Below are positions 17,866 to 41,391 of a stretch of DNA of 64,000 nt, in pieces; position 1 is the first letter of the stretch; every line of letters starts with the position of its first letter. The position numbers and the translations under genes were made by a program. The stretch covers positions 62,001 through 126,000 of the forward strand of contig CAMUYQ010000008.1 of assembly GCA_947165025.1 (NCBI GenBank), given 5' to 3'. Below the pieces are notes generated by a model. The model made no database searches and was not told where the DNA came from. It saw only the letters and a list, made by a program, of their open reading frames with translations. This DNA is from an uncultured Lachnospiraceae bacterium. GTDB taxonomy: Bacteria > Bacillota > Clostridia > Lachnospirales > Lachnospiraceae.

Positions 17866-17997
17866 GGAGGTCATCCGTGTAATTCTCTCCTCGGACGCTC
17901 TCGCTCACTGTCCTCGCACAGCGGTTCTAAGCTCGACAATACCTCGCTAAGAACCGGGCTGCGGAGTGCCGCGTCGAGAGTTACACGGATGGCCTCC
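17866..17997 (+). repeat. Structured palindromic element, copy C
   Basis: 132-bp element between the T-box terminator and trpB. The outer arms 17866-17887 and 17976-17997 are complementary over 22 bp, with two positions that are G-U wobbles in RNA of this strand. Inside, 17922-17932 pairs with 17946-17956 around a 13-nt loop TCGACAATACCTC, with an A-A mismatch at 17929/17949. The loop and mismatch are shared with copy B at 39207-39343, on the opposite strand, while the stems differ in compensating ways. In this copy the element would form part of the trpB leader mRNA. Its function is unknown. Confidence 0.8.
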
Positions 17998-18041
17998 TGC
18001 AGAAACCACCACTCACCCAGTAACCGAAAGGAGAAAAAATC

Positions 18042-19418
18042 ATGAGCGAACAGAACAAGATCCCCTACAAGATCTACCTTAACGAGAATGAGATCCCGAA
18101 GCAGTGGTACAACGTAAGGGCCGATATGAAGAACAAGCCCGCACCGCTCATCAACCCGGGAACACACGAGCCGATGGGATTTGACGATCTTCGTCCCGTA
18201 TTCTGCGACGAGCTGATCAAGCAGGAACTTGACAACGACACGGCATACTTTGATATCCCTCAGGAGATCCGGGACTTCTACAAGATGTACCGTCCTTCAC
18301 CGCTCGTTCGTGCGTACTGCCTTGAGAAGGCACTCGGCACACCGGCAAAGATCTACTACAAATTCGAGGGTAACAACACGAGCGGAAGCCATAAGCTCAA
18401 TTCCGCGATCGCACAGGCTTACTACGCAAAGAACCAGGGACTTAAGGGTCTGACCACCGAGACCGGTGCGGGTCAGTGGGGAACAGCTCTTTCAATGGCA
18501 TGTGCTTATCTCGGACTCGACCTCAAAGTGTTCATGGTCAAAGTATCATACGAACAGAAGCCTTTCAGACGTGAGGTCATGAGAACATACGGAGCAAGCG
18601 TTACTCCTTCTCCTTCAATGGAGACACAGATCGGCAGGAAGATCAACGCAGAGCATCCCGGAACGACAGGAAGTCTCGGATGTGCGATCTCGGAAGCTGT
18701 TGAAGTTGCAACAACAAATGAAGGTTACAGATACGTTCTCGGATCGGTGCTCAACCAGGTTCTTCTTCACCAGAGCGTCATCGGTCTTGAGACAAAGGCT
18801 GCACTTGACAAGTACGGCATCGTTCCCGATATGATCATCGGCTGCGCAGGCGGCGGATCAAACCTCGGCGGACTCATCTCCCCGTTCATGGGCGAAAAGC
18901 TCCGAGGTGAGAAAGACTACAGGATCATCGCAGTTGAGCCTGCAAGCTGCCCGAGCTTCACGAGAGGAAAGTACGCATATGATTTTTGCGATACAGGTAT
19001 GGTATGTCCCCTTGCAAAGATGTACACACTCGGAAGCAACTTCATCCCTTCGGCAAACCACGCAGGCGGACTTCGCTATCACGGCATGAGCCCGATACTG
19101 TCACAGCTGTACGCGGACGGCTACATGGAAGCTGTTTCGGTTGAACAGACAAGCGTATTTGAAGCTGCAGAGAATTTTGCAAGAACGGAAGGGATCCTCC
19201 CCGCTCCCGAATCAAGCCATGCGATCAGGGTTGCGATCGACGAGGCTCTCAAGTGCAAAGCAAGTGGCGAAGAAAAGACGATCGTATTCGGACTTACCGG
19301 AACAGGTTATTTCGATCTTGTCGCTTACCAGAAGTTCAACGACGGCGAGATGACCGATTACATCCCTACGGATGAAGACCTTGCAAAGAGCCTTGCTTCT
19401 CTTCCCAAGGTTGACTGA
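18042..19418 (+). CDS. trpB: Tryptophan synthase beta chain, TrpB2 type
   Basis: 458 residues, the length of the TrpB2 class (TrpB1 is about 400). It condenses indole and L-serine to L-tryptophan with PLP. The N-terminal extension (NENEIPKQWYNVRADM) and RPSPLVRAYCLEKAL are TrpB2 features. The PLP lysine lies in NNTSGSHKLNSAIAQ, the substrate loop in TETGAGQWGTALSMA, and the phosphate-binding loop in GCAGGGSNLGG. No trpA or other trp gene is nearby, so it may salvage indole or act as an independent synthase. It starts at ATG behind AAAGGAG. Control by the Trp T-box supports the specificity. A terminator follows 32 nt after the stop. Confidence 0.95.
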   Translation: MSEQNKIPYKIYLNENEIPKQWYNVRADMKNKPAPLINPGTHEPMGFDDLRPVFCDELIKQELDNDTAYFDIPQEIRDFYKMYRPSPLVRAYCLEKALGTPAKIYYKFEGNNTSGSHKLNSAIAQAYYAKNQGLKGLTTETGAGQWGTALSMACAYLGLDLKVFMVKVSYEQKPFRREVMRTYGASVTPSPSMETQIGRKINAEHPGTTGSLGCAISEAVEVATTNEGYRYVLGSVLNQVLLHQSVIGLETKAALDKYGIVPDMIIGCAGGGSNLGGLISPFMGEKLRGEKDYRIIAVEPASCPSFTRGKYAYDFCDTGMVCPLAKMYTLGSNFIPSANHAGGLRYHGMSPILSQLYADGYMEAVSVEQTSVFEAAENFARTEGILPAPESSHAIRVAIDEALKCKASGEEKTIVFGLTGTGYFDLVAYQKFNDGEMTDYIPTDEDLAKSLASLPKVD

Positions 19419-19450
19419 TAAAGATTTATACCTCCCTTTAATGAAAAGAA

Positions 19451-19479
19451 AAGCGGCCGGCCAAAACCGGTCGCTTTTT
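19451..19479 (+). terminator. Terminator after trpB
   Basis: AAGCGGCCGG (19451-19460) pairs with CCGGTCGCTT (19467-19476) with one wobble, followed by T-rich sequence. It also lies just beyond the stop of the convergent phosphoesterase gene (19497). Confidence 0.8.
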
Positions 19480-19496
19480 GATCGCTTGATATCATA

Positions 19497-20597
19497 TCAT
19501 TTGCGTTCTATATCGATTATGTTGTATTCGGACCTGCATCCGGTCCTGAACACTATCGCCCAGTCTGATATGCCGTCCGTAACGATAAAATCAGTGTTGC
19601 CGCATCTTACGAATCCGCGGACGTTGTCATTTTCCGACATGAGCGGCTGTATGTATTCAAGCGGCCAGAGCTGTCCTCCGTGCGTATGTCCCGAAAGGAC
19701 CAGATCAAAGCCCGCTGCCGCCTCATTATCATAATCTGTCGGCTGATGATCGAGGACGATCGTGTATTTATCCGTATCAAGCCCTTCGGCTATCTCCTCT
19801 GCGCTCATACGCCCGCCTCCTCCGAATCCGGCATCACGTCTTCCGATCACATAGAAACTGTCATCTATAAGGACACTCTCGTCAAGCAGGACCTTAACAC
19901 CTGCATTTCTCAGTTCATCAAGAAGCTCATCTCCCGAATATCCTCTTCTCTCATTCGAATAATAACCGTAGTCATGATTACCGAGGCAGTAGAACACACC
20001 GTAGCGGCTCTCAAACTCTGACAGAGCCGCGCATGCATCGACCATATCCTGTTTCATCGTCGAGTCGTCGACAAAGTCACCCGTGATCACGAGCATGTCC
20101 GGCTTCTTTTCTTCTATCACGGCGAGCCTGTCGGCAAATTCCTTCCCCGAAAATCCCGTGCCCATGTGCGAATCTGCAATGTGGGCTATACGGATCTTTC
20201 CGATATCCTTCTGTGTATCAAGCGAATAATAGCTCTCCCACATGCCGTGCATGAGTATCCATCCGATAACGAAATACACCACGCATAATGAAAGTGCCAC
20301 ACAGTCAATAACATACTGCTTTACATCCGCTTTTGCCGCCCTTCTGATCACGTATCCGGCAAGATCCCCGATGAGAAGAAAAGCGGCTGCATGCATTACG
20401 ATCACTATCATGTTGATTAGATCAAATACAAATGAAAGAAGTACAGCCACTGCGACAACAACAAGGATGGCAGCAAGGCGCGAAACGACCCTGTTCTGAA
20501 TAAGCGCAATGAGCGGAAGCTTTCCTGCTTTGTTTGACATGTATATCAGCCCGGCAAGAGCAACGAGCATCGATACACCGAATATCACAAGCCACAT
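19497..20597 (-). CDS. Membrane-anchored metallophosphoesterase (YaeI/YkuE type)
   Basis: 366 residues from the ATG at 20597; starts at 20624 or 20651 are also in frame, overlapping the upstream gene. Four N-terminal hydrophobic segments (LVIFGVSMLVALAGLIYM, AAILVVVAVAVLLSFVF, MIVIVMHAAAFLLIG, CVALSLCVVYFVIGWIL) precede a calcineurin-like domain from about residue 130: IAHIADSHMGTG, LVITGDFVDDSTM, YCLGNHDYGYY and LVLSGHTHGGQLWP. These are all the metal ligands of the family. Relatives act on lipid or nucleotide phosphodiesters, and the substrate here is unknown. It overlaps or abuts the SGNH hydrolase upstream, so the two form a transcription unit. Confidence 0.88.
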   Translation of the reverse strand: MWLVIFGVSMLVALAGLIYMSNKAGKLPLIALIQNRVVSRLAAILVVVAVAVLLSFVFDLINMIVIVMHAAAFLLIGDLAGYVIRRAAKADVKQYVIDCVALSLCVVYFVIGWILMHGMWESYYSLDTQKDIGKIRIAHIADSHMGTGFSGKEFADRLAVIEEKKPDMLVITGDFVDDSTMKQDMVDACAALSEFESRYGVFYCLGNHDYGYYSNERRGYSGDELLDELRNAGVKVLLDESVLIDDSFYVIGRRDAGFGGGGRMSAEEIAEGLDTDKYTIVLDHQPTDYDNEAAAGFDLVLSGHTHGGQLWPLEYIQPLMSENDNVRGFVRCGNTDFIVTDGISDWAIVFRTGCRSEYNIIDIERK

Positions 20598-20613
20598 TAT
20601 CGTTTCCCTGCTC

Positions 20614-21264
20614 CTATGCTTCATATATCCCGGTGATCTTATCCTTAACAAGAGCTGCCATCATCTTATGGCCCTCGGGATCGAGATGAAGATGGTCAGC
20701 ATTACCGGCAGCGATCTTTTCAGTTGCGTTTAAAAACCCGCATTTAAACTGATCCGCAACCATCTCATACCACTTTGCAAGTTCCTTTGACTTCGCAACT
20801 ACAGTGTCCGTATCAAAGAAAGGTGCGAACACCGATTCCTTCACGGGCTCCGACAGAGCCGGCGGTGATACGATAAGTATCTTCATATCAGGACAAGCGA
20901 GAAAGTGTTCACAGTATCCTTTTATTTTCATCAGCATCGTCATAAGACTCCCCGCTATATCCGCAGCGGGAAGATTGAACTTAAGCTTCAGATCGTTGGA
21001 TCCGAGCATAATAACGAGAAGATCCGGGCGCTTTGTCTCGAGCATCGGAAGCACGTAGTCCATACCGCACTTTGTCCCGCCTTCCCACGGATCCTCATTT
21101 GCGATCGTCCTTCCGTTCTGTCCCTCTTCGATGATCTCATATCCGTCACCAAGCATGGCCTGCAGAAGTTTGGGCCAGCGCGTGTTCTCATCAAACCTTC
21201 CGCCTGTTGCCGGATCGTATCCGTATGTGTTTGAATCTCCGAAGCAAACTATTTTCTTCTTCAT
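20614..21264 (-). CDS. SGNH/GDSL-family hydrolase
   Basis: 216 residues from the ATG at 21264, which has AAGGAG 7 nt upstream; the frame is open from 21288. Block I is IVCFGDSNTYGYDP (nucleophile Ser), block II includes EEGQNGRTIANEDPWEGG, block III is VIMLGSNDLKLKF, and block V is ADHLHLDPEGHKMMA with the catalytic Asp-His. It resembles the arylesterase/acylhydrolase subgroup with the W-E-G segment. There is no signal peptide, so it is cytoplasmic. The natural substrate is unknown. Confidence 0.9.
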   Translation of the reverse strand: MKKKIVCFGDSNTYGYDPATGGRFDENTRWPKLLQAMLGDGYEIIEEGQNGRTIANEDPWEGGTKCGMDYVLPMLETKRPDLLVIMLGSNDLKLKFNLPAADIAGSLMTMLMKIKGYCEHFLACPDMKILIVSPPALSEPVKESVFAPFFDTDTVVAKSKELAKWYEMVADQFKCGFLNATEKIAAGNADHLHLDPEGHKMMAALVKDKITGIYEA

Positions 21265-21325
21265 GACTGTTCTCCTTAAACTGCGCACTTAACGGCTTTG
21301 TTCGGATATTGTAACATATACGACG

Positions 21326-21354
21326 TTGACTTTAAATCTTTATATAAGTACAAT
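21326..21354 (+). promoter_or_regulatory. Promoter of degV
   Basis: TTGACT at 21326-21331 and TACAAT at 21349-21354 with an exact 17-nt spacer. AAGGAG follows at 21375-21380, 7 nt before the ATG at 21388. Confidence 0.75.
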
Positions 21355-21387
21355 ACCCTTATTACGTTAAAATCAAGGAGACGGGAT

Positions 21388-22257
21388 ATGAGCAGAATCG
21401 CCATAATGACCGACAGCAACAGCGGTATCACGCAGGAGCATGCCAAAAAGCTCGGGATCAGCGTTATTCCCATGCCATTCACGATAGACGGCAACGACTA
21501 TTTTGAAGATATAAATCTTACACAGGAAGAGTTCTACGAAAAACTGATGAGCGACTGCAAAGTCATGACATCCCAGCCCAATCCGGATACAGTTAAAAAG
21601 TACTGGGATGAGGCTCTTGCTTCATACGATGAGGTCGTATACATACCGATGTCAAGCGGTCTTTCCGGATCCACACAGACAGCAATGATCCTGGCCGAGG
21701 ATTACGACGGCAGGGTTCATGTTGCCGACAACCAGCGAATCTCGGTAACGCAGTACCAGTCAGTTCTTGATTCAATGGAAATGGCATCCCTCGGATACAC
21801 GGGAGCCGCCATAAAAGAACGTCTTGAAAACGACAGATTTGATTCGTCGATCTATATCATGGTCGACACACTCAAATATCTTAAGGCAGGCGGACGTCTT
21901 ACGCCGGCTGTTGCGGCTCTCGGAACGCTCCTTAAGATAAAACCGGTTCTTCAGATACAGGGGGAAAAGCTTGATACATTCTCTCTTGCCAGGACCCACG
22001 CCCAGGCAAAGACAATGATGATGAACCAGATCGCAAGGGATATCACCTCAAGATTTGACGGCAATGAAAACGGCGGCGGTGTGAATCTGTACGTGGCATA
22101 TTCATATGACAGGGATTCGGCCGAGACCTTCGTTAAAGAAATAAAAGAGCGCTTCCCCGAAACATCTCCCGAGGCTTATGCGCTCTCACTCTCAGTCAGC
22201 TGTCACATCGGACCGGGTGCACTTGCAGTTGCCGCATCAAAGACCGAAAAATACTGA
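21388..22257 (+). CDS. DegV family fatty-acid-binding protein
   Basis: 289 residues from the ATG at 21388 (AAGGAG); the frame is open from 21298 but only over promoter sequence. DegV/FakB proteins hold a fatty acid and can present it to the FakA kinase. Seen: the N-terminal IAIMTDSNSGITQEHAKKLG, VIPMPFTIDGNDYFEDINLT, TSQPNPDTVKKYWDE, IPMSSGLSGSTQTAM and the second-domain LKYLKAGGRLTPAVAALGTLLKIKPVL, which is the DegV hallmark. The C-terminus has SVSCHIGPGALAVA. It is transcribed alone. No fakA is in the window. Confidence 0.93.
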   Translation: MSRIAIMTDSNSGITQEHAKKLGISVIPMPFTIDGNDYFEDINLTQEEFYEKLMSDCKVMTSQPNPDTVKKYWDEALASYDEVVYIPMSSGLSGSTQTAMILAEDYDGRVHVADNQRISVTQYQSVLDSMEMASLGYTGAAIKERLENDRFDSSIYIMVDTLKYLKAGGRLTPAVAALGTLLKIKPVLQIQGEKLDTFSLARTHAQAKTMMMNQIARDITSRFDGNENGGGVNLYVAYSYDRDSAETFVKEIKERFPETSPEAYALSLSVSCHIGPGALAVAASKTEKY

Positions 22258-22264
22258 AACCCGA

Positions 22265-24304
22265 TCACGAGTTTTTCTTAATACATCTCTTGTTTTCGTA
22301 CATCTGACTGTCGGCTCTCTCAAATACTTCCGCAACAGACTTATCCGTTCCCGGTATGTATTTTGATATTCCGGCTGCTATGACCGGCCCTTTTTTATTG
22401 ATCACATTCTCCATTACCGTGTTCTTCAGATCATCAAACAGTTCGTCGGCCGCATCGTAATCATTTTTGCGAAGTATGACACAGAACTCATCCCCGCCTA
22501 TACGGAATACCGGACTGTGCGCAAAGATCCTGCACAGAAGCATTGCCGATGCACTGATGTAGTCATCGCCGGCGCGATGTCCCTCGGTATCATTTATCGT
22601 TTTCAGGTTGTTCATATCGCCTACGACTATCGCAAAAGGCTCATCACCTGCACCGCTGTCAATACTCTCCTGTATGGCGTTTTCAAATTCCTTATATGCA
22701 GTCTTATTTTTGACACCCGTCAATTCGTCTCTTCTGGCAAGTTCCTTCTCATTCTCAAGTGCCCTTAAGTGTTCCTTCTCACGTCTCATCTCATTATCGA
22801 TGTTTTCAACACCGATGATGTAATGCACCCCGTCACTTGCCTTTCTGGCGGTCATTCTGAAATACTTTATCGCATTATCAATGATCAGGCGGTAATCAAT
22901 ACTTAAACGCTTCCTGTCTTCAAGTGCGGACTGCATCTTATCCGGATCAAGGAATTCGATTGCCTTCTCCTTGTCATCCTGATGGAACAGCCGCGAAATA
23001 TCCGTTTTTGCCATTTCATAGAACCGATCACCCGACGTCTTGGTCTCGAGCTGTCCGTACATATGATCCGTCTCAAAGCACACAAAGCTGCCGTCGTTTT
23101 TATCAACGTAATACAGAGCATCGTAGTTTGCCGCGAGACTCTCGGCTATCTGGCTGAAAGTAATGTGCTTCTTCTGATTTTCGAGGCGAAGAGTCTCGGC
23201 CGTTATCTCATCATCTATATCCTTCTCGTAAAGGACAAAATGCTTACCGTCATATGCGAGCATTACGGTGAATCTGAAATATCTGGCTGAGCCGTTTACC
23301 ATGACCCTGTATTTGTAAGAGTATGATCTTCTTCCCTCAAGCTTTTCAAGCATAGACTCTCTCGTATAGAGACTTCCTGCAAAAGCGCGGTCATCGTGAT
23401 GAACAAATCTTGCCACGTTCTCACGGGTTTCCCCGTAGAAATCATTACCGCTCATCGGAACGTTCATTGATTCGTATTCGCTGCTTTTCGAATACTCCCT
23501 GTAATGTCCGCTTTCGATATTGATATAGTATATCGCCTCATAGTCCGATGCCAGACCGCTTGCTATATGATCGTATATTTCCTTCTCTTTGCGCGTCTCC
23601 TCGTTCTGCTGTCTCTCTATGTCCTGATCGATCCTCTCATCTTCTTCGACATACACATGTATCAGGCATGTTCCGATAAGACATCCGACAGCATAGAACG
23701 GATAGTCCGATGAAAAGAACTGCGCAACCATAAACAGTCCCATGACCACGCATGTAAGTCCGACCGCCCTGTTGTACAGCTTCTGTCTGCCTTCGCGCAG
23801 AAATGCGAAGGTGAGTGTGAATGCCGCTGTCATAAAATAAAGGAGAATCTGGAATGCAAAAGTTATGTGTCTTCCGATGGTCGGAATATAAACATTGTCC
23901 TGACCGAATCTGAACATGACGGGCGTAAAGAAGTTAACAGTAAGATGTATGACCTCGAACAGCAAAAGGAGCCATGCCGAATACAGAAGTAATTTACCGG
24001 GTGCTCCTTTTGTATCCAGATATGCCACGACGTATCTGACAAAAAGGAGCACGGAAACGGCCATCAGGAGAAAGTACAGTTCGCCGCCGGCAAAGAGAGC
24101 AGGAAACAGTTTCGGTACGGAGCGCAGATCATACAGTATGCCCCAGAAAATGTCGATAAAATAATAGATGAGAACGCCCAAAAGGAACTGCCTGTAGCGC
24201 TTTGCCGCAACACTGTTGTTCGCCAGGGCTGATTTTTTCAGCGTCTCTTTATTGATTATCATATGAAGTATCAGGGCAACAATATCTATACCCGCATACA
24301 ACAT
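22265..24304 (-). CDS. Membrane diguanylate cyclase (GGDEF)
   Basis: 679 residues from the ATG at 24304, with GGAGG upstream; the frame is open to 24343. Residues 1-220 carry about seven membrane helices. The middle (about 230-500) has two repeated PAS-like units with matching segments: IYDHIASGLASDYEAIYYIN and ITFSQIAESLAANYDALYYV, then MSGNDFYGETRENVARFVHHDD and SGDRFYEMAKTDISRLFHQD. The GGDEF domain (about 520-679) has RRDELTGVKNKTAY, VVGDMNNLKTINDTEGHRAG and the intact RIGGDEFCVILRK, so it should make cyclic di-GMP. Its convergent stop lies 7 nt after degV. It is probably transcribed alone. Confidence 0.9.
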   Translation of the reverse strand: MLYAGIDIVALILHMIINKETLKKSALANNSVAAKRYRQFLLGVLIYYFIDIFWGILYDLRSVPKLFPALFAGGELYFLLMAVSVLLFVRYVVAYLDTKGAPGKLLLYSAWLLLLFEVIHLTVNFFTPVMFRFGQDNVYIPTIGRHITFAFQILLYFMTAAFTLTFAFLREGRQKLYNRAVGLTCVVMGLFMVAQFFSSDYPFYAVGCLIGTCLIHVYVEEDERIDQDIERQQNEETRKEKEIYDHIASGLASDYEAIYYINIESGHYREYSKSSEYESMNVPMSGNDFYGETRENVARFVHHDDRAFAGSLYTRESMLEKLEGRRSYSYKYRVMVNGSARYFRFTVMLAYDGKHFVLYEKDIDDEITAETLRLENQKKHITFSQIAESLAANYDALYYVDKNDGSFVCFETDHMYGQLETKTSGDRFYEMAKTDISRLFHQDDKEKAIEFLDPDKMQSALEDRKRLSIDYRLIIDNAIKYFRMTARKASDGVHYIIGVENIDNEMRREKEHLRALENEKELARRDELTGVKNKTAYKEFENAIQESIDSGAGDEPFAIVVGDMNNLKTINDTEGHRAGDDYISASAMLLCRIFAHSPVFRIGGDEFCVILRKNDYDAADELFDDLKNTVMENVINKKGPVIAAGISKYIPGTDKSVAEVFERADSQMYENKRCIKKNS

Positions 24305-24382
24305 CGTATCGTACCTCCGTAAACACTGATCATAATTATACATTATTGTGACAAAAACGCAAAGAATATAAGCCTTAAGTTA

Positions 24383-24391
24383 TGATATAAT
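24383..24391 (+). promoter_or_regulatory. Extended -10 promoter directly before the hydrolase operon (leaderless)
   Basis: TGA-TATAAT ends 6 nt before the ATG at 24398, putting the expected start of transcription on the A of the start codon. No ribosome site is present. No clear -35 is seen. Confidence 0.7.
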
Positions 24392-24397
24392 CATCGC

Positions 24398-25354
24398 ATG
24401 GACAGATTCGGCGATAAAAAAACAAATATGAACACTCCGCTGATGAAGACCCTGAAGATAGTCAACTCTATCTCAGGAAGGTCGCTGACGGAGTCGGATC
24501 TGAAGAAACACCGTTCGGCAATGGCCCGTGCCGGCCGCATCGCCGCCCCAAAGGGCGGTATCGAGGTCAACACCTTTAATGCCGGCGGGATCGCATGCGA
24601 GGCGATAAAACCCGAATATGCACACAACCCCAACTATGCGATACTGTATGCCCACGGTGGCGGATACGTTTCCGGAAATCTGTCATATGCACGGATACTC
24701 GCGGCAAAGCTTGCTATCGCTACGGGATTTACGACATACTCTTTCGATTACAGGCTCTCGCCCGAAGATCCCTATCCCGCTGCTCTTGAAGATGCCCTCA
24801 CTGTCTGGTCGTATCTGACAATGGGGCGATACAGTCCGGATCATATCATCATTGCGGGAGAATCCGCGGGCGGAAACCTCGCGCTCTGTCTCGTACAGCA
24901 TTTAAAGGCCGCGGATCAGCCTCTTTGCAAAAGTCTTCTGCTGTTCAGTCCTTGGACCGATATGACATCGACATCCGACTCATATGAGATATACGCCGAA
25001 AAGGACCCGATACTGACAAAAGACTACGTGGCGGAAGCTGCAAAAGCGTACATCGCGGGCAAAGGCGCCACTGCCGAGGCGCGATTTTCTCCGCTGTTCG
25101 GAGATCTTCACGATCTTCCCGACGTTTATATCATGGCCGGAAGAAACGAAATTCTTCTTGATGACTCCGTAAAGCTCCATGATGAGATCATCCGTCACGG
25201 CGGAAAATGCGTACTTGATATAGAAGAAGACGGCTGGCACGTGTACCAGCAGATGCCCGTTCCGATCGCAACGCGTGCGATGAAACGGCTCAGTGCACAT
25301 GTGTCGGCTCAGATATACGGAGAAGTTTTATGGGAGATAACTGGTATAAAGTAG
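24398..25354 (+). CDS. HSL-type alpha/beta hydrolase (esterase)
   Basis: 318 residues. A hormone-sensitive-lipase family esterase: oxyanion motif YAHGGGYVSGN near residue 87, nucleophile IAGESAGGNLAL near 152, then DVYIMAGRNEILLDDS (acid) and EEDGWHVYQ (His). It probably cleaves or transfers short acyl esters. It is the first gene of a three-gene operon: its last 25 nt overlap the acyltransferase gene in another frame, so translation is coupled. The start lacks a ribosome site and appears leaderless. The next in-frame ATGs (codons 11 and 16) have no ribosome site either. Confidence 0.9.
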   Translation: MDRFGDKKTNMNTPLMKTLKIVNSISGRSLTESDLKKHRSAMARAGRIAAPKGGIEVNTFNAGGIACEAIKPEYAHNPNYAILYAHGGGYVSGNLSYARILAAKLAIATGFTTYSFDYRLSPEDPYPAALEDALTVWSYLTMGRYSPDHIIIAGESAGGNLALCLVQHLKAADQPLCKSLLLFSPWTDMTSTSDSYEIYAEKDPILTKDYVAEAAKAYIAGKGATAEARFSPLFGDLHDLPDVYIMAGRNEILLDDSVKLHDEIIRHGGKCVLDIEEDGWHVYQQMPVPIATRAMKRLSAHVSAQIYGEVLWEITGIK

Positions 25355-26577
25355 ATAACGTTGCAAACATGTTCCTTGCGACTGTTTCGGCAAGAGATAC
25401 GAAGACTCTGAGAGTCAGCTGCAGCCTTAACGAGGACATCGACCCCGCACTTTTACAGGAAGCGGTCCTGTCCGCGATCCAGGACAGGCCGCAGTTTCAG
25501 ATGCGTATACGCCGCGGTCTCTTCTGGCACTATATGGAGAACACGGATATCATGCCGCAGGTCACCGAAGAGAGCGACAGGATATGCCCTCTTCTCTATG
25601 CACCGGCAAAGGCGATGCTGCACTATCAGGTGACATACTTTGCCAAAAGGATCAATCTGGATATTTTCCATGCACTGACCGACGGGACCGGAGCGCTGGA
25701 ATTTCTGAACATCATAGTACTTGATTATCTGAGGCTGAAATATCCCGGAAAATACGAGGATGTGACGATCCACTCGGGTGCATCGGCAGATGACTTAAGC
25801 CAGGACAGCTATAAACAGTTTTTTGGAAAAGCCGCTCTTTCAGGTGTGAACTTTTCAAAGAAAGCATATCATCCCGGAGGCCTGAAGCTTCCGTATGACC
25901 AGCTGCAGTTCTTTGAGATAACGATGCCGACAGATCAGATACTTCCCAAGGCAAAAGAGCTCGGCGTGTCGCTGACAAGCTATATCGGAGCCGCATGGAT
26001 GCTCGCGATCAGGGATGACATGCCGCCGAGAAAGCGTAAACTTCCGGTGACGCTGTCCCTTCCGGTCAACCTGAGAAACTACTATCCTTCACACACAAAC
26101 AGGAACTTTTTCAATAACGTCAGTGTGACACACGTGTTTGATGAAGATATCACACTCGAGGATCTTGCGGTCAAGTTTGACGCTTCTCTCAGGAGCCAGC
26201 TGACGGAAGAAAACATAAGAAAACAGATGGACAGCTTCGAGACGATGGAGTACGTTGCACCTGTACGTGCGGTCCCTCTTTTCATAAAACAGCTTGTCAT
26301 ACGCCACGGCAAAAAACTGTCGGAGCGGAAAGTATCGATGGTCTTTTCCAATCTTGGTGTGCAGAAGCTTCCTGAGGAACTTACGGAAAAGATATCAGGC
26401 TACAGCGCATTCTGCAGCAGCGCGCACCTGTTCTCGACGATGTCAAGTTATAACGGGATGCTCTCTCTAGGTGTCTCATCGCCGTACATAAACACCGGTG
26501 TGATCAAAAACCTTGTCAGACGATTTTCGCATCAGGATGCGGATATAAAAGTATGTGCAACGGAGGTCATAGGATGA
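25330..26577 (+). CDS. Condensation-fold acyltransferase (alcohol acetyltransferase-like)
   Basis: 415 residues of the chloramphenicol-acetyltransferase/condensation superfamily. The active-site HxxxDG is present as NLDIFHALTDGTGALEF near residue 117. A second-half motif region includes LPVTLSLPVNLRNYYPSHTN (compare the structural Arg/Asn segments of alcohol acetyltransferases) and VSMVFSNLGVQKLP (DFG-like loop). It is expected to transfer an acyl group to an alcohol or amine, with donor and acceptor unknown. There is no carrier-protein domain, so it is not an NRPS fragment. It overlaps the esterase gene by 25 nt and the DUF6320 gene by 4 nt. Confidence 0.82.
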   Translation: MGDNWYKVDNVANMFLATVSARDTKTLRVSCSLNEDIDPALLQEAVLSAIQDRPQFQMRIRRGLFWHYMENTDIMPQVTEESDRICPLLYAPAKAMLHYQVTYFAKRINLDIFHALTDGTGALEFLNIIVLDYLRLKYPGKYEDVTIHSGASADDLSQDSYKQFFGKAALSGVNFSKKAYHPGGLKLPYDQLQFFEITMPTDQILPKAKELGVSLTSYIGAAWMLAIRDDMPPRKRKLPVTLSLPVNLRNYYPSHTNRNFFNNVSVTHVFDEDITLEDLAVKFDASLRSQLTEENIRKQMDSFETMEYVAPVRAVPLFIKQLVIRHGKKLSERKVSMVFSNLGVQKLPEELTEKISGYSAFCSSAHLFSTMSSYNGMLSLGVSSPYINTGVIKNLVRRFSHQDADIKVCATEVIG

Positions 26578-27242: not shown

Positions 27243-27250
27243 TGAACGTC

Positions 27251-31670: not shown

Positions 31671-31678
31671 AGACATGT

Positions 31679-32178: not shown

Positions 32179-32184
32179 AACTGT

Positions 32185-32213: not shown

Positions 32214-32255
32214 ATAAAGGACGCGGTCATACAGATCAAAAAGGAGCCGACGCGC

Positions 32256-34019: not shown

Positions 34020-34109
34020 AACATCAACTGTTTTTTTATCCGGGTATAAAGTAATCCTCCGTTTGGTCCGATGAATTATATACAGGGGAGAGACACGGAG
34101 GAAATGATA

Positions 34110-34283
34110 ATGAACAGAAAAGCCATCGCACACGCACTTTTGATCACGGCTATAATATTCACGGTATTCTTCGCTGCTGCCCTTTCAGGCGCAAAGACAG
34201 CTTCGGCAGCACCGGAACAGATAACAACAATGAATCTTGCAAAGGCGGATCTTCAGATCAGACAGGCTCACGCAGATCTGTAA
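34110..34283 (+). CDS. Small secreted peptide (57 residues)
   Basis: Starts at the ATG at 34110 behind GGAGG; an upstream in-frame ATG at 34071 lacks a site. The product is a signal peptide (MNRKAIAHALLITAIIFTVF through a small-residue region ending ASAA) and a short mature part of about 23 residues (PEQITTMNLAKADLQIRQAH and three more). The good ribosome site and textbook signal peptide favour a real gene. Its last 26 nt overlap the 3' end of the opposite-strand membrane protein gene. No family was recognised. It may be a secreted peptide or a truncated secreted protein. Confidence 0.55.
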   Translation: MNRKAIAHALLITAIIFTVFFAAALSGAKTASAAPEQITTMNLAKADLQIRQAHADL

Positions 34284-35787
34284 GACTGATAAGCTTTGAC
34301 GAAAGCGTCAGGACAATAAGCGGGACGATCTGCAGAAGAACACGGTTTCCCGAATCTCCGACGTTTTCAGCCAGGATATCGCCCCTTCCGTAGGAAGCGG
34401 CAATGACTATGAGCAAAAATCCCACCGTAAGGGTTATATCATAAGCTTCAGGTATGATTTTTTCGATCTTCCTGCCTTTAAGGTGCGATACAGCATAAAC
34501 GGCGGCGATCAGGATAAGGGTTGTGATCACAAAATAAGGGAACATTCCCCATCCGCTCTGCCTGAACAGGTTTGCCAGGAAAGCCTTCAGGTTTCCTACA
34601 TACAGCTGTCTGTCAAGAACAAACAGCGCAGCGTTTCCAAGAACAAGCGCACTGACGTACACAAACGGCAGTGCTTTTTTATACCTTTTTTTGAACACGG
34701 GCTCGACAAATGCGATGTATATCCCCGTCAGCACCATAAGAGACACGAGAAGGACAGCCTTCTGCGGTGTCAGGAACAGATATACGTTATCAAGAACATA
34801 AAATCCCACGAATATCCTGAGGCAGTAACCGCCGAACAGGAGCACCATCGGGGCGATCACAAATAATGCAAGCTTCTTTCCGCTCTTGTGGTAAAGGCTT
34901 ATACAGATGATCAGCCAGACAACAAACAGCGTGCCCTCGATCCTGAAAAGCGAAAGTGCGACAAGAAGAAGCGGGCATATCCCAAGCTTCTCCTCTCTGT
35001 CATCGGCCGCAGTATACGCTGCGATAAAGAACATCTCCATGAAATACATGTTGGCGAGCGCCCAGTGTCCGAGAATGACAAACGGCGTTGAGGCAGCAAG
35101 GACGAGCGTAACAAGAAAAGCCGCCGCATAAGCGCCCTTTACGGACATCTTTGACTTTGCACGTTCGTAAACACAAACCGCAAAGAAGCAGATAAAATCA
35201 ATATGGAAGAACTCTCTTATACCGAACGACTCTCCGAATCCGAAAAGTGCGCAAAGAGTGTCAATGCTTACCGTCCCGAGTCCCGTATCGGTCAGCCAGA
35301 AATCAAACTGGTCTCTCAGCTTTCCGTAATACACGATGATATCCGGGTATCTTCTGAAGAAGTACATCGAATCGTTGGATATCGAAACGGGTGCGATACC
35401 GCTTACCGCTATGGCAGCAATGACAAGAACCGCGATCAGCGCCGTAAGCATGTGCCTGATCTCGGATTTGCCCGTATGTGCGGCATATGATCTTCTGTTC
35501 AGTATGATCACAGCTGCTGTCTCGAGAACGAGCGCGGCAGTGACCGTCAGTGTATTATATGGGATCTGCGTGATGAGCATCGCATAGGCGGTTATGACAA
35601 ACGCGGACAGTCCGACAGGAAATGCGAGGATGCTGCGCTTTATCCACGACAGAGCGCTCCCCTCAAAGCGGTCCGTAATCAGAGATCCGAATATGAAGAT
35701 GCACACTATCACCGCATACTGTCTGAAAAAGTATGGGAATGACTGGCCTTGAAGATATTCGGTTACAAGCGTTTCAAGCAGGTTCAT
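34258..35787 (-). CDS. Polytopic membrane protein (possible GT-C type glycosyltransferase)
   Basis: 509 residues with about twelve membrane helices (for example VIVCIFIFGSLI, AFPVGLSAFVITAYAML, AAFLVTLVLAASTPFVIL, LILIAAVYAVSHL). A long first extracellular loop between helices 4 and 5 contains ISNDSMYFFRRYPDIIVYYG, and an acidic/aromatic loop of this type is typical of GT-C enzymes, but no diagnostic motif fixes the family. It overlaps the upstream gene by 4 nt (ATGA), so the pair is translationally coupled and probably works together at the membrane. Substrate unknown. Confidence 0.7.
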   Translation of the reverse strand: MNLLETLVTEYLQGQSFPYFFRQYAVIVCIFIFGSLITDRFEGSALSWIKRSILAFPVGLSAFVITAYAMLITQIPYNTLTVTAALVLETAAVIILNRRSYAAHTGKSEIRHMLTALIAVLVIAAIAVSGIAPVSISNDSMYFFRRYPDIIVYYGKLRDQFDFWLTDTGLGTVSIDTLCALFGFGESFGIREFFHIDFICFFAVCVYERAKSKMSVKGAYAAAFLVTLVLAASTPFVILGHWALANMYFMEMFFIAAYTAADDREEKLGICPLLLVALSLFRIEGTLFVVWLIICISLYHKSGKKLALFVIAPMVLLFGGYCLRIFVGFYVLDNVYLFLTPQKAVLLVSLMVLTGIYIAFVEPVFKKRYKKALPFVYVSALVLGNAALFVLDRQLYVGNLKAFLANLFRQSGWGMFPYFVITTLILIAAVYAVSHLKGRKIEKIIPEAYDITLTVGFLLIVIAASYGRGDILAENVGDSGNRVLLQIVPLIVLTLSSKLISLTDLREPV

Positions 35788-36506
35788 TTTGCGATGACCT
35801 CATCAAAATATGTTTTGGATGCGATATAAAAACTGTCGGTATCGTGGTGCTCTGCACGCTGCCACAAAACAACCAGATCCTTTGCGTCCTTTATGTCATC
35901 GGGGCATATATACACGCGCGAATCGCCGATGTATGTGTTGTAGAACCAGTAATAATAAAAGCCGTTGCCCCATTCACCGTCATAAGGAGTGAGTGCGAAA
36001 GTGTATCGCATCATATCGTTCGCTGCTCCGAAGTCGTCAAAATATTCCTTCTGTTCATCGGTCAGAACGACATCGTTGAGCGCACTGTCCTTAACTACTT
36101 CCGCCTTGCTAAAATCAAGGAAATCCCACATGTTGACCGCATGATAATACTCATACAGCCAGTAGTTTCCCTCGGAATCGTAGTCGGTACCTTCTCCTTC
36201 GTTTACAGCATCCTTTACCTCGTATGCATCGTCCGGCGTGTACACACGTCTTCCGGCGAAGAACTCATTGAGAAATGCATCCGGATATTCACCGGTTGAA
36301 AGGAATTCGCGCTGGTACATAGTCTGGTCGTACGGATGATAAAACGGAAGGATATTGCCGATAGTCCTTACATTATAAACAGCAAAAAACAGAACCATTC
36401 CCACAGCATACAGACCGAGAATGATCCCGTTTTTCTTTTTTAATACAGGAATATGAAGCGCTGCAAAAGCTGCAACTGCCAGCGCAAGCGCAAGTACGAT
36501 CTTCAT
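35784..36506 (-). CDS. Membrane-anchored extracellular protein of unknown function
   Basis: 240 residues. Two N-terminal hydrophobic segments (IVLALALAVAAFAALHIPVL and GIILGLYAVGMVLFFAVYNV) precede a hydrophilic, acidic and Tyr/Trp-rich domain (SEGNYWLYEYYHAVNMWDFL, GNGFYYYWFYNTYIGDSRVY) predicted outside. No family was recognised. It is coupled to the polytopic membrane protein gene through an ATGA overlap and is likely its accessory subunit (inference). The gene begins 27 nt after the clpB stop is passed in the other direction of reading, on the same strand, so it may be read from the clpB transcript. Confidence 0.65.
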   Translation of the reverse strand: MKIVLALALAVAAFAALHIPVLKKKNGIILGLYAVGMVLFFAVYNVRTIGNILPFYHPYDQTMYQREFLSTGEYPDAFLNEFFAGRRVYTPDDAYEVKDAVNEGEGTDYDSEGNYWLYEYYHAVNMWDFLDFSKAEVVKDSALNDVVLTDEQKEYFDDFGAANDMMRYTFALTPYDGEWGNGFYYYWFYNTYIGDSRVYICPDDIKDAKDLVVLWQRAEHHDTDSFYIASKTYFDEVIAK

Positions 36507-36532
36507 AAGTCTCTCCGTTCCTACAGAGAAGA

Positions 36533-39127
36533 TTATATATCGGCAGACGGAGTTTGTGCAACAAGCGTATCGTTTACGGCATCGATCGTGACAGTGTCGC
36601 CTTCCTCTATATTTCCTTCAAGTATCTTCTTTGCGGCGAGCGTTTCGACAGTGCGCTGCATGAATCTCTTAAGCGGACGGGCTCCGTATACCGGATCGTA
36701 TGCCTCTCTGATGATCAGCTCTTTTGCGGCATCGGTAAGCTCTATCGACAGTCTCCTGTCTGATAGTCTTGCATTGACGTCATCAAGAATGAGCTTCATG
36801 ATACCGCCGATATTGTCGCGGGTAAGCGGCTTGAACAGTATCGTCTCATCAAGACGGTTTAAGAATTCCGGCCTGAAGTTTGCGCGAAGCTCGTTCATGA
36901 CCGCTTCGGATGCCTCGGAGCTTATGTTTCCGTTATCGTCTATCCCGTCAAGAAGATACTGGGCACCGATATTACTCGTCATTATGAGTATCGTGTTCTT
37001 AAAATCAACCGTCCTGCCCTGTGAATCAGTGATCCGTCCGTCATCAAGCACCTGGAGCAGAACATTGAACACGTCCGGATGCGCTTTCTCTATCTCATCA
37101 AACAGAACGACCGAATAAGGTTTTCTTCTGACCGCTTCCGTAAGCTGGCCGCCTTCCTCGTATCCGACGTATCCGGGAGGCGCTCCGATAAGACGCGATA
37201 CGGAGAACTTCTCCATGTATTCGCTCATGTCTATACGGACCATGTTGTTTTCATCGTCAAACAGGCTTGCTGCAAGTGATTTTGCAAGCTCGGTCTTTCC
37301 GACGCCGGTCGGTCCGAGGAACAGGAACGATCCTATCGGCTTCGCGGGATCCTTAATTCCTGCCTTCGATCTTAAGATAGCCTCTGTAACCTTTGTAACG
37401 CCTTCATCCTGACCGATGACACGCTTATGAAGTTCCTCATCAAGATGAAGTATCTTGGTCCTCTCGCCTTCGGTAAGCTTTGATACCGGAATACCGGTCC
37501 AGCGGCTGACGATCTGGGAGATCTCTTCGTCGGATACGCTTTCGTGTACGAGTGTAAGGTCTTTATCCCTTACGGCTTCTTCCTCGACCCTCAGCTGTTC
37601 GGTCAGTTTCGGAAGCTTTCCGTACTGAAGCTCACCGGCAAGTTCGTAATTGTTCTCGCGCTTTGCTATCTCTATCTCATTATTTGTGCTTTCTATCTGG
37701 GCACGGAGCTTTGAGAGTTTCTCGACCGAGGCCTTTTCGTTTTCCCAAAGTGCCATCTTGGTATCATACTCTTCCTTTATCTCCGCAAGCTCTTTTCGAA
37801 GTTCCTCAAGCCTGGACTGACTGAGCTGGTCTGTTTCCTTATTCAGCGCCGCTTCCTCGATCTCAAGCTGCATCTTTCTGCGGCTGATCTCATCAAGTTC
37901 GGCAGGCATGGATTTCATCTCTGTCTTTACGAGCGCACATGCCTCGTCAACAAGATCGATCGCTTTATCGGGAAGAAATCTGTCCGTGATGTAACGGTCG
38001 GAAAGAGTTGCCGCAGCAACAAGCGCGGTATCCACTATCTTTACTTCATGATAGTTCTCGTATCTTTCCTTCAGTCCGCGGAGAATGGAGATCGTATCCT
38101 CAACCGTAGGCTCGTCGACCATCACAGGCTGGAACCTTCTCTCAAGCGCCGCATCCTTTTCGATATACTGCCTGTATTCATCAAGCGTTGTAGCACCTAT
38201 GCAGTGAAGCTCACCGCGTGCGAGCATAGGCTTTAACATGTTTCCGGCATCAAGTGCACCGTCGGTCTTACCGGCACCGACTATCGTATGAAGCTCATCA
38301 ATGAACAGGATTATCCTGCCGTCGCTCGCCTTGACATCCTCGAGTACCGCTTTCAGACGCTCTTCGAATTCACCGCGGTATTTTGCTCCCGCAACAAGCG
38401 CACCCATATCAAGCGCAAATATCGTCTTATCTTTTAATCCTTCGGGAACATCCCCGCCGACTATACGCTGTGCGAGTCCTTCGACTACGGCTGTCTTTCC
38501 GACACCGGGCTCACCGATAAGAACAGGGTTGTTCTTTGTCTTACGCGACAGGATACGAATGATGTTTCTGATCTCCGTGTCCCTTCCGATAACAGGATCG
38601 AGCTTCTGGTTTCTGGCGCGTTCCACAAGATCCTGGCCGTATTTTTCAAGCGTATCGTACGTTGCTTCCGGATTGTCCGTATTAACGTTGTGATTGCCTC
38701 TGACCTCGGCAAGCGCCGTAAGGAAACGGTCTCTTGTTATGCCGTATTCCTTCATAAGGTCTTTGATGTCGCTGTCAGCATATTTCAGAATGCTCAGGAA
38801 CAGATGCTCTACGGAAACGTAGGAATCGTTCATCGCCTTCGCTTCATCTTCCGCCGACACAAGGACCTTGTTGAGCTTGTCGCCGACATAGACCTGCCCT
38901 CCGGAAACCTTCGGACGTCTGTTGATGTGGCTCTCCACATTATCGAGAAAATGTTCCGTGTTGATCTCCATCTTCTCGATCAGTTTCGGAAGAAGACCGT
39001 CCTCCTGCGTCATAAGGGCATAGAGAAGATGGACCTGCGCTATCTCCTGGTTTCCGTGATCATATGTGATCTTCTCGAGCGAATTGACCGCGTCGAGTGA
39101 TTTTTGCGTAAATTTCTGTATGTTCAT
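36533..39127 (-). CDS. clpB: ClpB disaggregase
   Basis: 864 residues, full ClpB length. The hexameric AAA+ chaperone extracts polypeptides from aggregates together with DnaK. The N-domain ([20 protein letters not shown]) is followed by AAA-1 (Walker [14 protein letters not shown] near 205), a coiled-coil middle domain of about 110 residues (EIARR.. through [16 protein letters not shown]) that separates ClpB from ClpC, and AAA-2 ([14 protein letters not shown] near 600, sensor [16 protein letters not shown]). AGGAG precedes the ATG. It is controlled by a CIRCE box and an extended -10 promoter about 240 nt upstream, with a long structured leader between. Confidence 0.97.
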
Positions 39128-39168
39128 AATATCAACTCCTCTCCTCTTAAATACGGGCGCGGCAGAGT

Positions 39169-39188
39169 AATTCCTCGAAAACGCGCTT
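39169..39188 (+). repeat. Truncated end of the structured element family
   Basis: AATTCCTCGAAAACGCGCT matches 18 of 19 positions of copy A (41248-41266), same strand. The homology stops shortly after, so this is an element end without its partner, next to the inverted full copy B. Confidence 0.6.
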
Positions 39189-39206
39189 TGGCACCACCAG
39201 TAACTA

Positions 39207-39343
39207 ATAGGGCGCGCAAAAGTGTTTCCGAGAAAACCTCGTGAAGTCGCCTGCGCTTGGCGAGGTTTTGTCGAGCCTAGCGTCAGCTGCGGCTGAACAA
39301 GAGCGCGAGCGCGTTTTAGAGGAAATACTTTTGTGCGCCCTAT
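39207..39343 (-). repeat. Structured palindromic element, copy B, in the clpB leader
   Basis: 137 bp. Arms 39207-39229 and 39321-39343 are complementary over 23 bp with two G-U type positions. Read on the minus strand, 39322-39284 matches copy A (41252-41290) at 35 of 39 positions, and the right side shares AGGTTTTCTCGGAA with copy A. The inner hairpin is CGCT-A-GGC, loop TCGACAAAACCTC, GCC-A-AGCG (39282-39254), which has the same plan as copy C. It lies between the clpB promoter and ATG, so it would be part of the clpB mRNA. Function unknown. Confidence 0.82.
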
Positions 39344-39356
39344 GTATCACATACGT

Positions 39357-39385
39357 AGGGTACCACTTATGATTAGCACTGTCAA
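39357..39385 (-). promoter_or_regulatory. Promoter of clpB
   Basis: On the minus strand TTGACA (39385-39380), a 17-nt spacer, and TACCCT (39362-39357) with an extended TGG. The -35 hexamer lies inside the CIRCE box, so HrcA binding would block polymerase. The 5' leader is about 220 nt and includes copy B. The gap 39128-39432 holds this promoter, the CIRCE box and the repeats, and no gene. Confidence 0.75.
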
Positions 39386-39399
39386 GAGCTGAGTGCTAA
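39373..39399 (-). promoter_or_regulatory. CIRCE operator (HrcA-binding)
   Basis: TTAGCACTG-N9-GAGTGCTAA; one position differs from the consensus TTAGCACTC-N9-GAGTGCTAA. It places clpB in the HrcA regulon rather than under CtsR (known for CIRCE; the binding here is inferred). Confidence 0.93.
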
Positions 39400-39432
39400 T
39401 ATTTTCAGAATATTTAGATATTTGCGTGAAAA

Positions 39433-41202
39433 TCACATTTTCTCGGGTGCTGCAAACCCCAGAAGGTCTATCGAAGTCTCGAGGATATCCCTTGTCAGGA
39501 TCAGAAGTGCTATCCAGCCTTCCTTCCTGGCGGTATCTTCTTCCGTCAGTATCCTCGTCTCATGATAGAACCTGTTGAACGCATTGCATACGTCGTAGAT
39601 GTAGGCGCATATCCTGTGCGGTGCGATCTCCTCATATGACAGCGCGATGACCTGCGAGAACTTGGTTATCTCGAGCATGAGTGCTTTTTCGGCATCGTTC
39701 TGCGGCAGCCCTATGACTTCGGGAAGCGCAGATGCGCCCGAAAGAGCGTCTTTATATTTTGCAAGGATCGATTTGATCCTGACTATCGTATAGAGGATGT
39801 ACGGGCCTGTATTTCCCTCAAATGAGGTGAACTTGTCCGTATCGAATATGTAATCCTTGGTCGCCTGATTGGAAAGATCGCCGTATTTGATCGCAGCAAG
39901 TGCAACGATCCTTGCGGTCTTTTCGGCTTCCTGAGGGTCGGTCTCATGATTCTCCGTGATCTTTTTAAGCATCGTCTCACGGATGTCCGCGATCAGCGTC
40001 TCGAGTCTCATGACTCCGCCCTCACGCGTCTTGAACGGCTTGCCGTCCTTTCCGTTCATCGTCCCGAAACCGAGAAAATCAAGCTGCGTATCCTTACGTG
40101 CGATCCCGGTCTTTTTGGCGCAGCGGAACACCTGGATAAAATGCATCTCCTGGCGTTTGTCGACAACGTATATGAGATGGTCCGGATCGAAGTTATTCTT
40201 CCTGTCAACGAGCGTTGCAAGATCAGTCGTTGTATAAAGTGCGGCGCCGTCTGATTTTAATATCATGCACGGAGGAATCTCTTTTGTATCGGACTGTTCA
40301 GCAACATCAACGACAAGGGCTCCCTCGCTCTCATGCGCGAAACCGTTCTTCTTCATATCATCGACCATGCCGGGGATGATCTTATCAACGCTGCTCTCGC
40401 CCTTCCACCAGTCAAAATCAACCGACAGATCGGCATAGTTTCTCTTAAGGTCGGGAACCGACACGTTCATTATATGTTCCCAGAGCGCGTGGTATCCGCG
40501 GTTTCCCTTCTGCAGCTGCTTTGTCGCTTCAAGAGCTTCCTCTTTGAAAGCGTCGTCCTCTTTGCTTTTTGCGGATGCCGCAGGATATATCTCTTCAAGT
40601 TCGGACAGTGTAAACGGTGCTTCCTTCGGATATTCGCCGGTAAAGCTTTCATCAAAATACGGAAGATCAGGGCATCTCTTTTTCAGTTCGGTGATGATCA
40701 GTCCCATCTGCAGTCCCCAGTCGCCGAGATGCACGTCGCCGATGACCTCGTTTCCCATGTAGCGGCATATCCTCTTGACGCTCTCACCGATGATCGCGGC
40801 ACGAAGATGTCCTACATGAAGCGGCTTCGCAACGTTCGGTCCGCCGTAATCAACTATTATCTTTTTCGGAGCGGCAACCTCAAGCCCGAATCTCTCTCCA
40901 GTCCTCATACCGTTTAAATACTCTGCGAGAAAATCATCCGATACCTTTATGTTCAGAAAGCCGGGCGCTACGGCACCGATCTCGGAAAATGCGCTCTCAT
41001 CCTTGAGCACTTCGGCAACCTCGTTAGCGATCATGATCGGAGCCTTGTGGTATGCCTTGGCGCCGGCCATCGCTCCGTTACACTGGAATTCGCACAGATC
41101 CGGCCTGTTACTGAGGCCGACCTTTCCGTACGAAGCATCATATCCCGCCTTCTCAAATCCGCGCGATACTGTTTCCGAAATCTGTTCCAAAATTGTTTTC
41201 AT
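39433..41202 (-). CDS. argS: Arginyl-tRNA synthetase
   Basis: 589 residues. It charges tRNA-Arg with arginine. The N-terminal domain (VGLSNRPDLCEFQCNGAMAG) is followed by the class I signature VDYGGPNVAKPLHVGHLRAAIIGE, whose HVGH is the HIGH motif, then YGDLSNQATKDYIFD in place of a strict KMSKS-bearing stretch, as in many ArgRS, and a C-terminal DALR anticodon domain (ALSYEEIAPHRICAYIYDVC, FNRFYHETRIL). AAAGGA lies 7 nt before the ATG. It lies downstream of queH with copy A of the structured repeat between them. Confidence 0.96.
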   Translation of the reverse strand: MKTILEQISETVSRGFEKAGYDASYGKVGLSNRPDLCEFQCNGAMAGAKAYHKAPIMIANEVAEVLKDESAFSEIGAVAPGFLNIKVSDDFLAEYLNGMRTGERFGLEVAAPKKIIVDYGGPNVAKPLHVGHLRAAIIGESVKRICRYMGNEVIGDVHLGDWGLQMGLIITELKKRCPDLPYFDESFTGEYPKEAPFTLSELEEIYPAASAKSKEDDAFKEEALEATKQLQKGNRGYHALWEHIMNVSVPDLKRNYADLSVDFDWWKGESSVDKIIPGMVDDMKKNGFAHESEGALVVDVAEQSDTKEIPPCMILKSDGAALYTTTDLATLVDRKNNFDPDHLIYVVDKRQEMHFIQVFRCAKKTGIARKDTQLDFLGFGTMNGKDGKPFKTREGGVMRLETLIADIRETMLKKITENHETDPQEAEKTARIVALAAIKYGDLSNQATKDYIFDTDKFTSFEGNTGPYILYTIVRIKSILAKYKDALSGASALPEVIGLPQNDAEKALMLEITKFSQVIALSYEEIAPHRICAYIYDVCNAFNRFYHETRILTEEDTARKEGWIALLILTRDILETSIDLLGFAAPEKM

Positions 41203-41231
41203 GGTGGATCCTTTCCATCTATTTCTATATT

Positions 41232-41391
41232 AGGTGCGGGACATAATAATTTCTCGAAAACGCGCTCCCGCTCCTGTTCAGCCGCAGCTGTTGTCAGGAT
41301 TGCGAAGCGATCGTGACGCGGCGACATCTGCAAAGCAGATGTTGGCAGACGTCTCCACAAGGTTTTCTCGGAACAATTATGTCCCGCACCT
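41232..41391 (+). repeat. Structured palindromic element, copy A
   Basis: 160 bp between queH and argS. The arms 41232-41247 and 41376-41391 are perfectly complementary (16 bp: AGGTGCGGGACATAAT and its reverse complement). The interior shares a 39-bp block (35 identities) and AGGTTTTCTCGGAA with copy B. The centre differs from B and C and instead forms two hairpins: GTCA-GAT-GC repeated inversely around 41293-41317, and GACATCTGC-AAA-GCAGATGT around 41323-41342. It is oriented opposite to the neighbouring genes. The 198-bp gap holds nothing else. Confidence 0.8.

Follow-up and report, generated by a model that had tools for sequence, protein, structure and literature searches.

The three intergenic elements A, B, and C described here lie in the window, a 64,000-nucleotide stretch (positions 62,001 to 126,000) of contig CAMUYQ010000008.1 from an uncultured Lachnospiraceae bacterium. 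They are members of a larger family, one that is real and bigger than the first-pass annotation of the window had recognized. This is probably a Lachnospiraceae family of non-autonomous, mobile, palindromic interspersed elements of about 140 bp, in which the fold of a single strand is conserved and the arms that close it change fast but remain complementary. Its unusual feature is that the arms change rapidly, yet always in complementary fashion, while the core they enclose is conserved and is found facing either way at a single site.

The search for further copies, which the first-pass annotation had recommended, was productive. A blastn search of the genome to which the window belongs (2.70 Mb in 20 contigs), with copy A as query, recovered 55 pieces, many of which are the paired 5′ and 3′ blocks of further copies. 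A covariance model (R1), built from 22 few-gap aligned copies of that genome with B in the training set and A and C outside it, finds 46 places there at E < 1e-6, 22 of them the training set, and recovers B, A, and C where the annotation had placed them; their folds show the long arms it described. Three subfamilies can be distinguished by eye in this genome, with C nearest the third. Within the genus, R1 matches 14 of 25 genomes (own included), and none of 16 genomes from other families of the order. A broader model (R2), used for the genus, order, and class searches, matches 22 of 37 genus genomes, with 0 to 46 matches in each. Few candidates were scored per genome in the order search (8) and the class search (11), and the counts are therefore lower bounds: at least 65 of 392 genomes in the order, from 31 of 173 genera, and at least 7 of 291 in the class, all of them Lachnospiraceae. 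One R2 search took in only part of loci L128–L243. The tip motif, searched for in genome contigs, was found in at least 116 stretches; among the matches listed, 97 are titled Lachnospiraceae or carry a genus assigned there, and 19 have broader or other labels, one of them Bacteroides. The titles include Butyrivibrio, Roseburia, Dorea, Robinsoniella, and others, which we take to be Lachnospiraceae genera. The 77 tip motifs "outside" elements include never-scanned loci and are not used as a count. The tip pattern has no match in viral contigs, nor the core consensus in plasmids and phages, and given these searches there is no sign of a phage or plasmid origin.

The three window copies were folded on both strands. 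Read 5′ to 3′ on the structured strand, the element begins with an arm of about 16–23 bp, followed by a short helix (GTTTCC/GGAAAT) that includes a G.T wobble, an internal loop of tandem GA/GA, a helix GAAAAC/GTTTTC, a 3 × 3 purine-rich loop (GAA/TGA or GGA/GGA), and an inner helix. The tip hairpin has the consensus CTTrrCGAGGTnTTnTCGAGyyTAG, with a second tip type also present; a further hairpin, GAGCGnnAGCGC, stands on the 3′ side, and the small hairpin has the consensus GAGCGnnAGCG. The consensus fold of the 22 own-genome copies comprises 46 pairs, 31 of which have changes on both sides. The genus alignment holds 98 elements, from 90 of 98 sources; excluded from it are five loci that are overlapping duplicates, the atypical copies L079, L080, and L099, and four matches at E > 1e-4, of which three lie on the opposite strand of a palindrome. 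Across it, 44 of the 46 pairs vary on both sides and 93.3% of pair cells are standard, against 36–46% when partners are slid and 61% when shuffled; paired cells make up 94.6% in 107 distinct matches, almost all of which come from other genera. Both alignments are model-fitted and lean towards the model, but the arms are complementary in model-free alignments too. The covariation is overwhelming and far beyond chance. In the arms, pairing rather than sequence is kept, as the first-pass annotation had argued, and the further copies and the covariation on which it had staked its proposal are both present.

The GA/GA loops, and mispairs of the G.T rather than the A.C type, lie on the strand opposite to the one first chosen, and the orientations given then (sense to trpB and clpB, antisense to argS) are accordingly reversed: A is sense, in the gap upstream of argS; B is antisense to clpB; and C is antisense to a TrpB-like gene, between that gene and a T-box leader. 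In model-free arm alignments of the genus, the structured strand has 38 G.T against 12 A.C mispairs and 47 G.A against 1 T.C, with sense copies (19:8 and 22:1) and antisense copies (14:3 and 19:0) biased in the same direction; these counts, like all the mispair counts given here, are inflated and not independent because the copies share ancestry. Since the direction is the same in both sets of copies, the mRNA of the host gene is not what is selected. At the tip, the strand bias in other genera reaches 80:1. The safest reading of these sequences would be that a single-stranded fold of the structured strand, whether RNA or single-stranded DNA (ssDNA), is maintained in the tip, core, and inner stem, and that pairing in the outer arms is maintained by something with less strand preference.

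Core identity and arm identity are nearly unrelated over 4753 pairs of copies (rho 0.09). Where cores are at least 95% identical in model columns (32 pairs), the arms are 40% identical on average; and in 16 of the 22 same-genome pairs from different loci with cores 96–99% identical, the arms are only 14–50% identical. Ordinary paired point mutation would be too slow to produce such change. Arms remain similar in a few pairs (L090/L092; L031/L039/L040). The earlier description of the arms as "coevolving" therefore stands insofar as they stay complementary, but is not the whole story. Arm likeness is found mainly within a site. With cores 0.75–0.85 identical, outer arms of same-site pairs from different species score 11.2 (21 pairs) against 8.4 for other interspecies pairs, and with cores 0.85–0.95 identical the scores are 14.5 (12 pairs) and 8.5; for the 17 same-genome pairs whose cores reach 0.95 or more, the score is 9.5. 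Even in this matched comparison the pairs are not independent. An unmatched comparison gave 14.2 for same-site pairs (50 pairs), 9.5 for other interspecies pairs, and 13.9 for same-genome pairs (17 pairs, cores of at least 0.95), but it ignores core identity and the shared inner arm feeds the last value, so our conclusions rest on the matched outer-arm scores.

At the same shared sites, the core faces both ways. Between pgk and tpiA the element is sense in six species and antisense in two, and between gyrB and gyrA the counts are two and one; between scpA and scpB, the arms are almost the same in genomes G004 and G417, but the cores they enclose are sense in the former and antisense in the latter. 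Taken together, the likeness of arms and the opposition of cores at one site indicate that arms tend to belong to the site, and that the core can turn or be replaced. One study reports that template switching between the arms of an inverted repeat homogenizes them and inverts the spacer (PMC8604942), and a second that it creates and maintains RNA hairpins (PMC8794818). Plausibly, then, arm-to-arm template switching during replication keeps the arms complementary and flips the core in place. The inversions in PMC8604942 involve only a few bases, so flipping a core of about 100 bases would be an extension of that mechanism.

Presence and absence between relatives point to mobility, as does the copy number. 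Empty sites, sought as the first-pass annotation had proposed, are common: 20 of 22 relatives' sites are empty by model search (11 of 11 at lon–ysxC, 9 of 11 at scpA–scpB). The clpB–argS spacer holds B in the window's own genome, two other copies in G023, a partial copy in G419, and none in eight other genomes. Spacers at this site, and at the G344 pair site compared with G431, do not align. In two genomes, the lon–ysxC spacer without the element contains other, longer palindromic inserts (L335 in G358 and L336 in G417, with repeats of 10 and 9). The bases following the arms are A-rich, with no T-run, and purines predominate in the 5′ arm across the genus (at alignment column 9, 60 of 98 elements have G). 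The annotation had offered a structured RNA or an element resembling a miniature inverted-repeat transposable element (MITE), a proposal that came close; the MITE traits of target duplication and an obvious shared terminal repeat were not found. By eye, no such shared repeat is apparent in the genus, where 5′ arm identity is 0.31 against 0.27 shuffled. Separately, an outer stem like TTAGGTAATTGCGAAACT is alike between the copies at L212, L228, and L234, in the manner of a terminal inverted repeat (TIR), and more weakly at L152 and L165.

The history we favor for these mobile palindromic elements would be one in which copies spread into short intergenic gaps, persist there for long periods, and are then pruned or replaced. 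What is conserved would be the single-stranded fold of one strand, as RNA or ssDNA: the arm stem, the tandem G.A loop, the inner helix, and the two hairpins. The arm stem would need pairing only, leaving its sequence to change fast, and a putative trans-acting factor may read the tip.

Several observations weigh against this interpretation, in addition to the shared ancestry behind the mispair counts. In other genera the strand bias is weaker inside the model (G.T 27 against A.C 14; G.A 19 against T.C 4), is missing in helices P4–5 (14:8 and 8:12), and is gone when 30 further outer nucleotides are included (79:102 and 78:60). The same-site likeness of arms comes largely from one site, pgk–tpiA, and the three gyrB–gyrA pairs score 10.0, near background. 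The gyrB–gyrA cores, moreover, are 96–97% identical between species whose clpB and argS ends are about 74–79% identical to ours, which is more conservation than would be expected of a relic that is only mobile. In PMC8604942, the inverted spacers are a few bases long, not about 100. Target-site duplications, which the first-pass annotation had suggested looking for, do not appear: the longest word shared by the flanks averages 3.82 bases, against 3.77 (sd 0.09) after shuffling, and 92 of 300 shuffles were as high. Nor is there a candidate mobilizer. The Y1 transposase family (PF01797), present in 18 of the 37 genus genomes, was not detected in the two richest, G000 and G023, one of which is 89% complete; and no transposase was seen by eye among the first 70 residues of 84 neighbor proteins of the own-genome copies, which look ordinary.

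Gene context bears on whether the copies might instead be host regulatory sequences. Genes were called for the orientation counts by codon-score scripts, with the tpiA start in L102 read from the flank. Among 97 genus elements with both neighbors called, those between co-directional genes comprise 46 sense and 39 antisense copies, and 12 lie between convergent (8) or divergent (4) genes; two genus elements overlap a called gene. In other genera, 99 elements divide into 36 sense, 31 antisense, 18 convergent, and 14 divergent, with a further 9 of 108 at contig edges. Constant sense orientation, expected of a cis-regulatory RNA, is thus found neither in the genus nor in the other genera. A riboswitch or leader is rejected on the occurrence of both orientations, the common direction of the strand bias in sense and antisense copies, and the orientation flips at shared sites, as the annotation had judged in preferring an element. 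Family models confirm gyrB, gyrA, pgk, tpiA, scpA, lon, ysxC, clpB, argS, and the TrpB-like gene as neighbors; the model for scpB gave no confirmation. In the genus, the element often starts within tens of bases of the preceding stop codon.

A broader alternative is that these are paralogous regulatory sites of a host structured RNA family, binding a protein or serving processing or stability within operons, with P1 free to vary and the core under purifying selection. A conserved core with a variable P1 is the usual look of a cis-regulatory RNA. The motifs are of RNA type (tandem GA and G.U), occupied sites are common to several species, the gyrB–gyrA cores are alike to the degree given above, and many sense copies of the genus stop 15–30 bases before the next start codon. 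However, antisense copies are nearly as common as sense ones and share their strand bias, orientation at shared sites flips between species, the checked neighbors are unrelated housekeeping genes (some judged by eye), and copy number ranges from 0 to 46 within one genus. On balance, we consider a host RNA family unlikely.

It is also conceivable, though we would call it doubtful, that the arms are written anew at every insertion. What moves would then be the core with a stem of about 5 bp, and one target flank would be copied across, for example by hairpin-primed synthesis. In favor of this, copies with 97–99% identical cores share little beyond the innermost arm base pairs, and the outer-arm score of same-genome pairs, 9.5, is near the 8.0–9.0 of less related cores; exact inverted repeats of more than 7 bases are missing from 18 of the 20 empty spacers at two sites. 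The purine-rich 5′ arm, in contrast, is unexpected for random targets, some recent copies share arms (L031, L039, and L040; L090 and L092), and the relatives' spacers are too diverged to reveal a single ancestral arm. If arms were nonetheless written from the target flank, with the core alone moving and then flipping between them, the family would represent a new class of bacterial mobile element, a prospect we hold only tentatively and think improbable. Insertion into pre-existing palindromes such as hairpins or terminators, with arms that are target sequence, is very improbable: a small hairpin is visible by eye at the corresponding position of some empty clpB spacers (G004, G358, G417) and the two empty lon–ysxC spacers of G358 and G417 hold other inverted repeats of 9–10 exact bases, but the other 18 of 20 at lon–ysxC and scpA–scpB lack long ones, the sequence after the arms is A-rich rather than a T-run, and the purine bias of the arms is oriented.

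Table 1. Positions in the window of copies A, B, and C and their parts, with loci elsewhere that hold close pairs of copies
Feature	Position	Strand	Basis and remarks
B, complete, subfamily a	39204..39343	+	R1, 148.4 bits (B in training set); antisense to clpB and argS
B, 5′ arm, partner of 39321–39343	39207..39229	+	fold, sequence
B, tip hairpin CTTGGCGAGGTTTTGTCGAGCCTAG, most conserved module	39256..39280	+	sequence; motif in many Lachnospiraceae
B, small conserved hairpin GAGCGCGAGCGC	39301..39312	+	sequence; helix 8 of covariation analysis
B, 3′ arm	39321..39343	+	fold
Truncated copy adjoining B, core end and one arm only	about 39154..39189	-	blastn piece C8:101157–101187; sequence
A, arms complete, apical domain replaced	41231..41395	-	R1, 96.5 bits, E 4e-19, outside training set
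A, 5′ arm on structured strand, partner of 41232–41247	41376..41391	-	fold, sequence
A, 3′ arm on structured strand	41232..41247	-	fold
A, substituted apical domain, two small hairpins	41291..41345	-	A positions 60–114 match C6:16631–16685
C, divergent, nearest subfamily c	17865..18001	-	R1, 61.4 bits, E 3e-11, outside training set
C, 5′ arm on structured strand, partner of 17867–17887	17976..17996	-	fold, sequence
C, 3′ arm on structured strand	17867..17887	-	fold
Close pairs of copies			loci L103, L104, L033, L154, L164, L180, L200, L217, L218, L221, L229, L230, L231, L247, L255, L257, L264, L268, L269

Close pairs of copies, counted in the loci retrieved, are divergent in 19 of 21 cases and convergent in none, an order that suggests a composite unit or an insertion preference. 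At L014/L090 (G000 C6:92533–92672), a complete copy abuts a half copy broken in the apical loop, much as the truncated copy adjoins B; insertion of new copies may occur within or alongside existing ones. Parts of A's substitute hairpins recur elsewhere in the genome without the element (blastn; L023, L026). They belong to a second small repeat of two adjacent hairpins of the GCGGCGACATCTGCnnnGCAGATGTTGG type, which occurs alone or in place of A's apical domain (window 41291–41345; L023 1501–1555; L026 447–474), and a similar apical substitution, by other hairpins, is present at L079 1501–1653. The T-box leader upstream of C and the TrpB-like gene (window 17571–17814) scores 92.1 bits, against a gathering score of 93. 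On contigs labeled Robinsoniella (L241, L145, L186), the arms reach roughly 50–85 near-perfect base pairs, and at L145 the arms of one element look nested in those of another. Elsewhere the tip hairpin is found twice, 44 bases apart, without long arms and in another architecture (L144, L171, L182, L202, L214, L227, and others; by eye), possibly a second element read by the same putative factor.

These results describe a repeat family, absent from the sources searched, that occurs widely in one of the major gut bacterial families and sits inside housekeeping operons such as gyrB–gyrA, pgk–tpiA, and lon–ysxC. It offers a test bed for how long stems stay paired while they change, whether by selection on the single strand or by template switching in replication, and the opposite orientations at shared sites make this question directly testable in cultured Lachnospiraceae.

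At the gathering threshold, Rfam 15 gave no match on the window or on seven loci, and Rfam scans by E-value, covering eight loci (mainly those of tip hairpins) and window 17400–18060, found nothing over the element. It is likewise not described in the open-licence literature searched, which leaves out most subscription papers. Several repeats of other bacteria are nonetheless comparable. YPAL/RU-2 of Yersinia and the bcr repeats of the Bacillus cereus group are interspersed palindromes with predicted long hairpins, like the Lachnospiraceae element; their sequences, from other bacteria, are not known to be related to it. ERIC (IRU, RU-1) of enterobacteria is also an intergenic, imperfect palindrome, found in both orientations and kept at shared sites, but its arms are conserved in sequence, whereas those of the Lachnospiraceae element differ in nearly every copy. 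Its length is similar, at 127 bp, and it is listed with a 7-bp TIR and a target duplication (PMC2229807); no duplication was found for the Lachnospiraceae element. The Correia or NEMIS repeats of Neisseria are similar too, at about 107–155 bp, with stem-loop transcripts proposed as RNase III targets; the same source gives NEMIS 24-bp TIRs and a target duplication (PMC2229807), neither of which was found in the window's genus. REP and REPIN sequences resemble the Lachnospiraceae element as extragenic palindromes with inverted doublets and compensatory hairpin changes, and REP hairpins have been proposed to form in ssDNA or mRNA (PMC3116915). REPs, however, are given as 20–40 bp (PMC3733652), against about 140 bp here, and doublets are a minority here, most copies being single. 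Membership in the RAYT/REPIN system was rejected on the unit length of about 140 bp and the lack of a detected Y1 transposase in the two richest genomes. The family lacks those hallmarks of REPIN and of classic MITEs for which it was tested, but it behaves like ERIC or REPIN: in the functional sense of an ERIC-like mobile palindrome, it is multi-copy, present or absent between relatives, intergenic, and found in both orientations.

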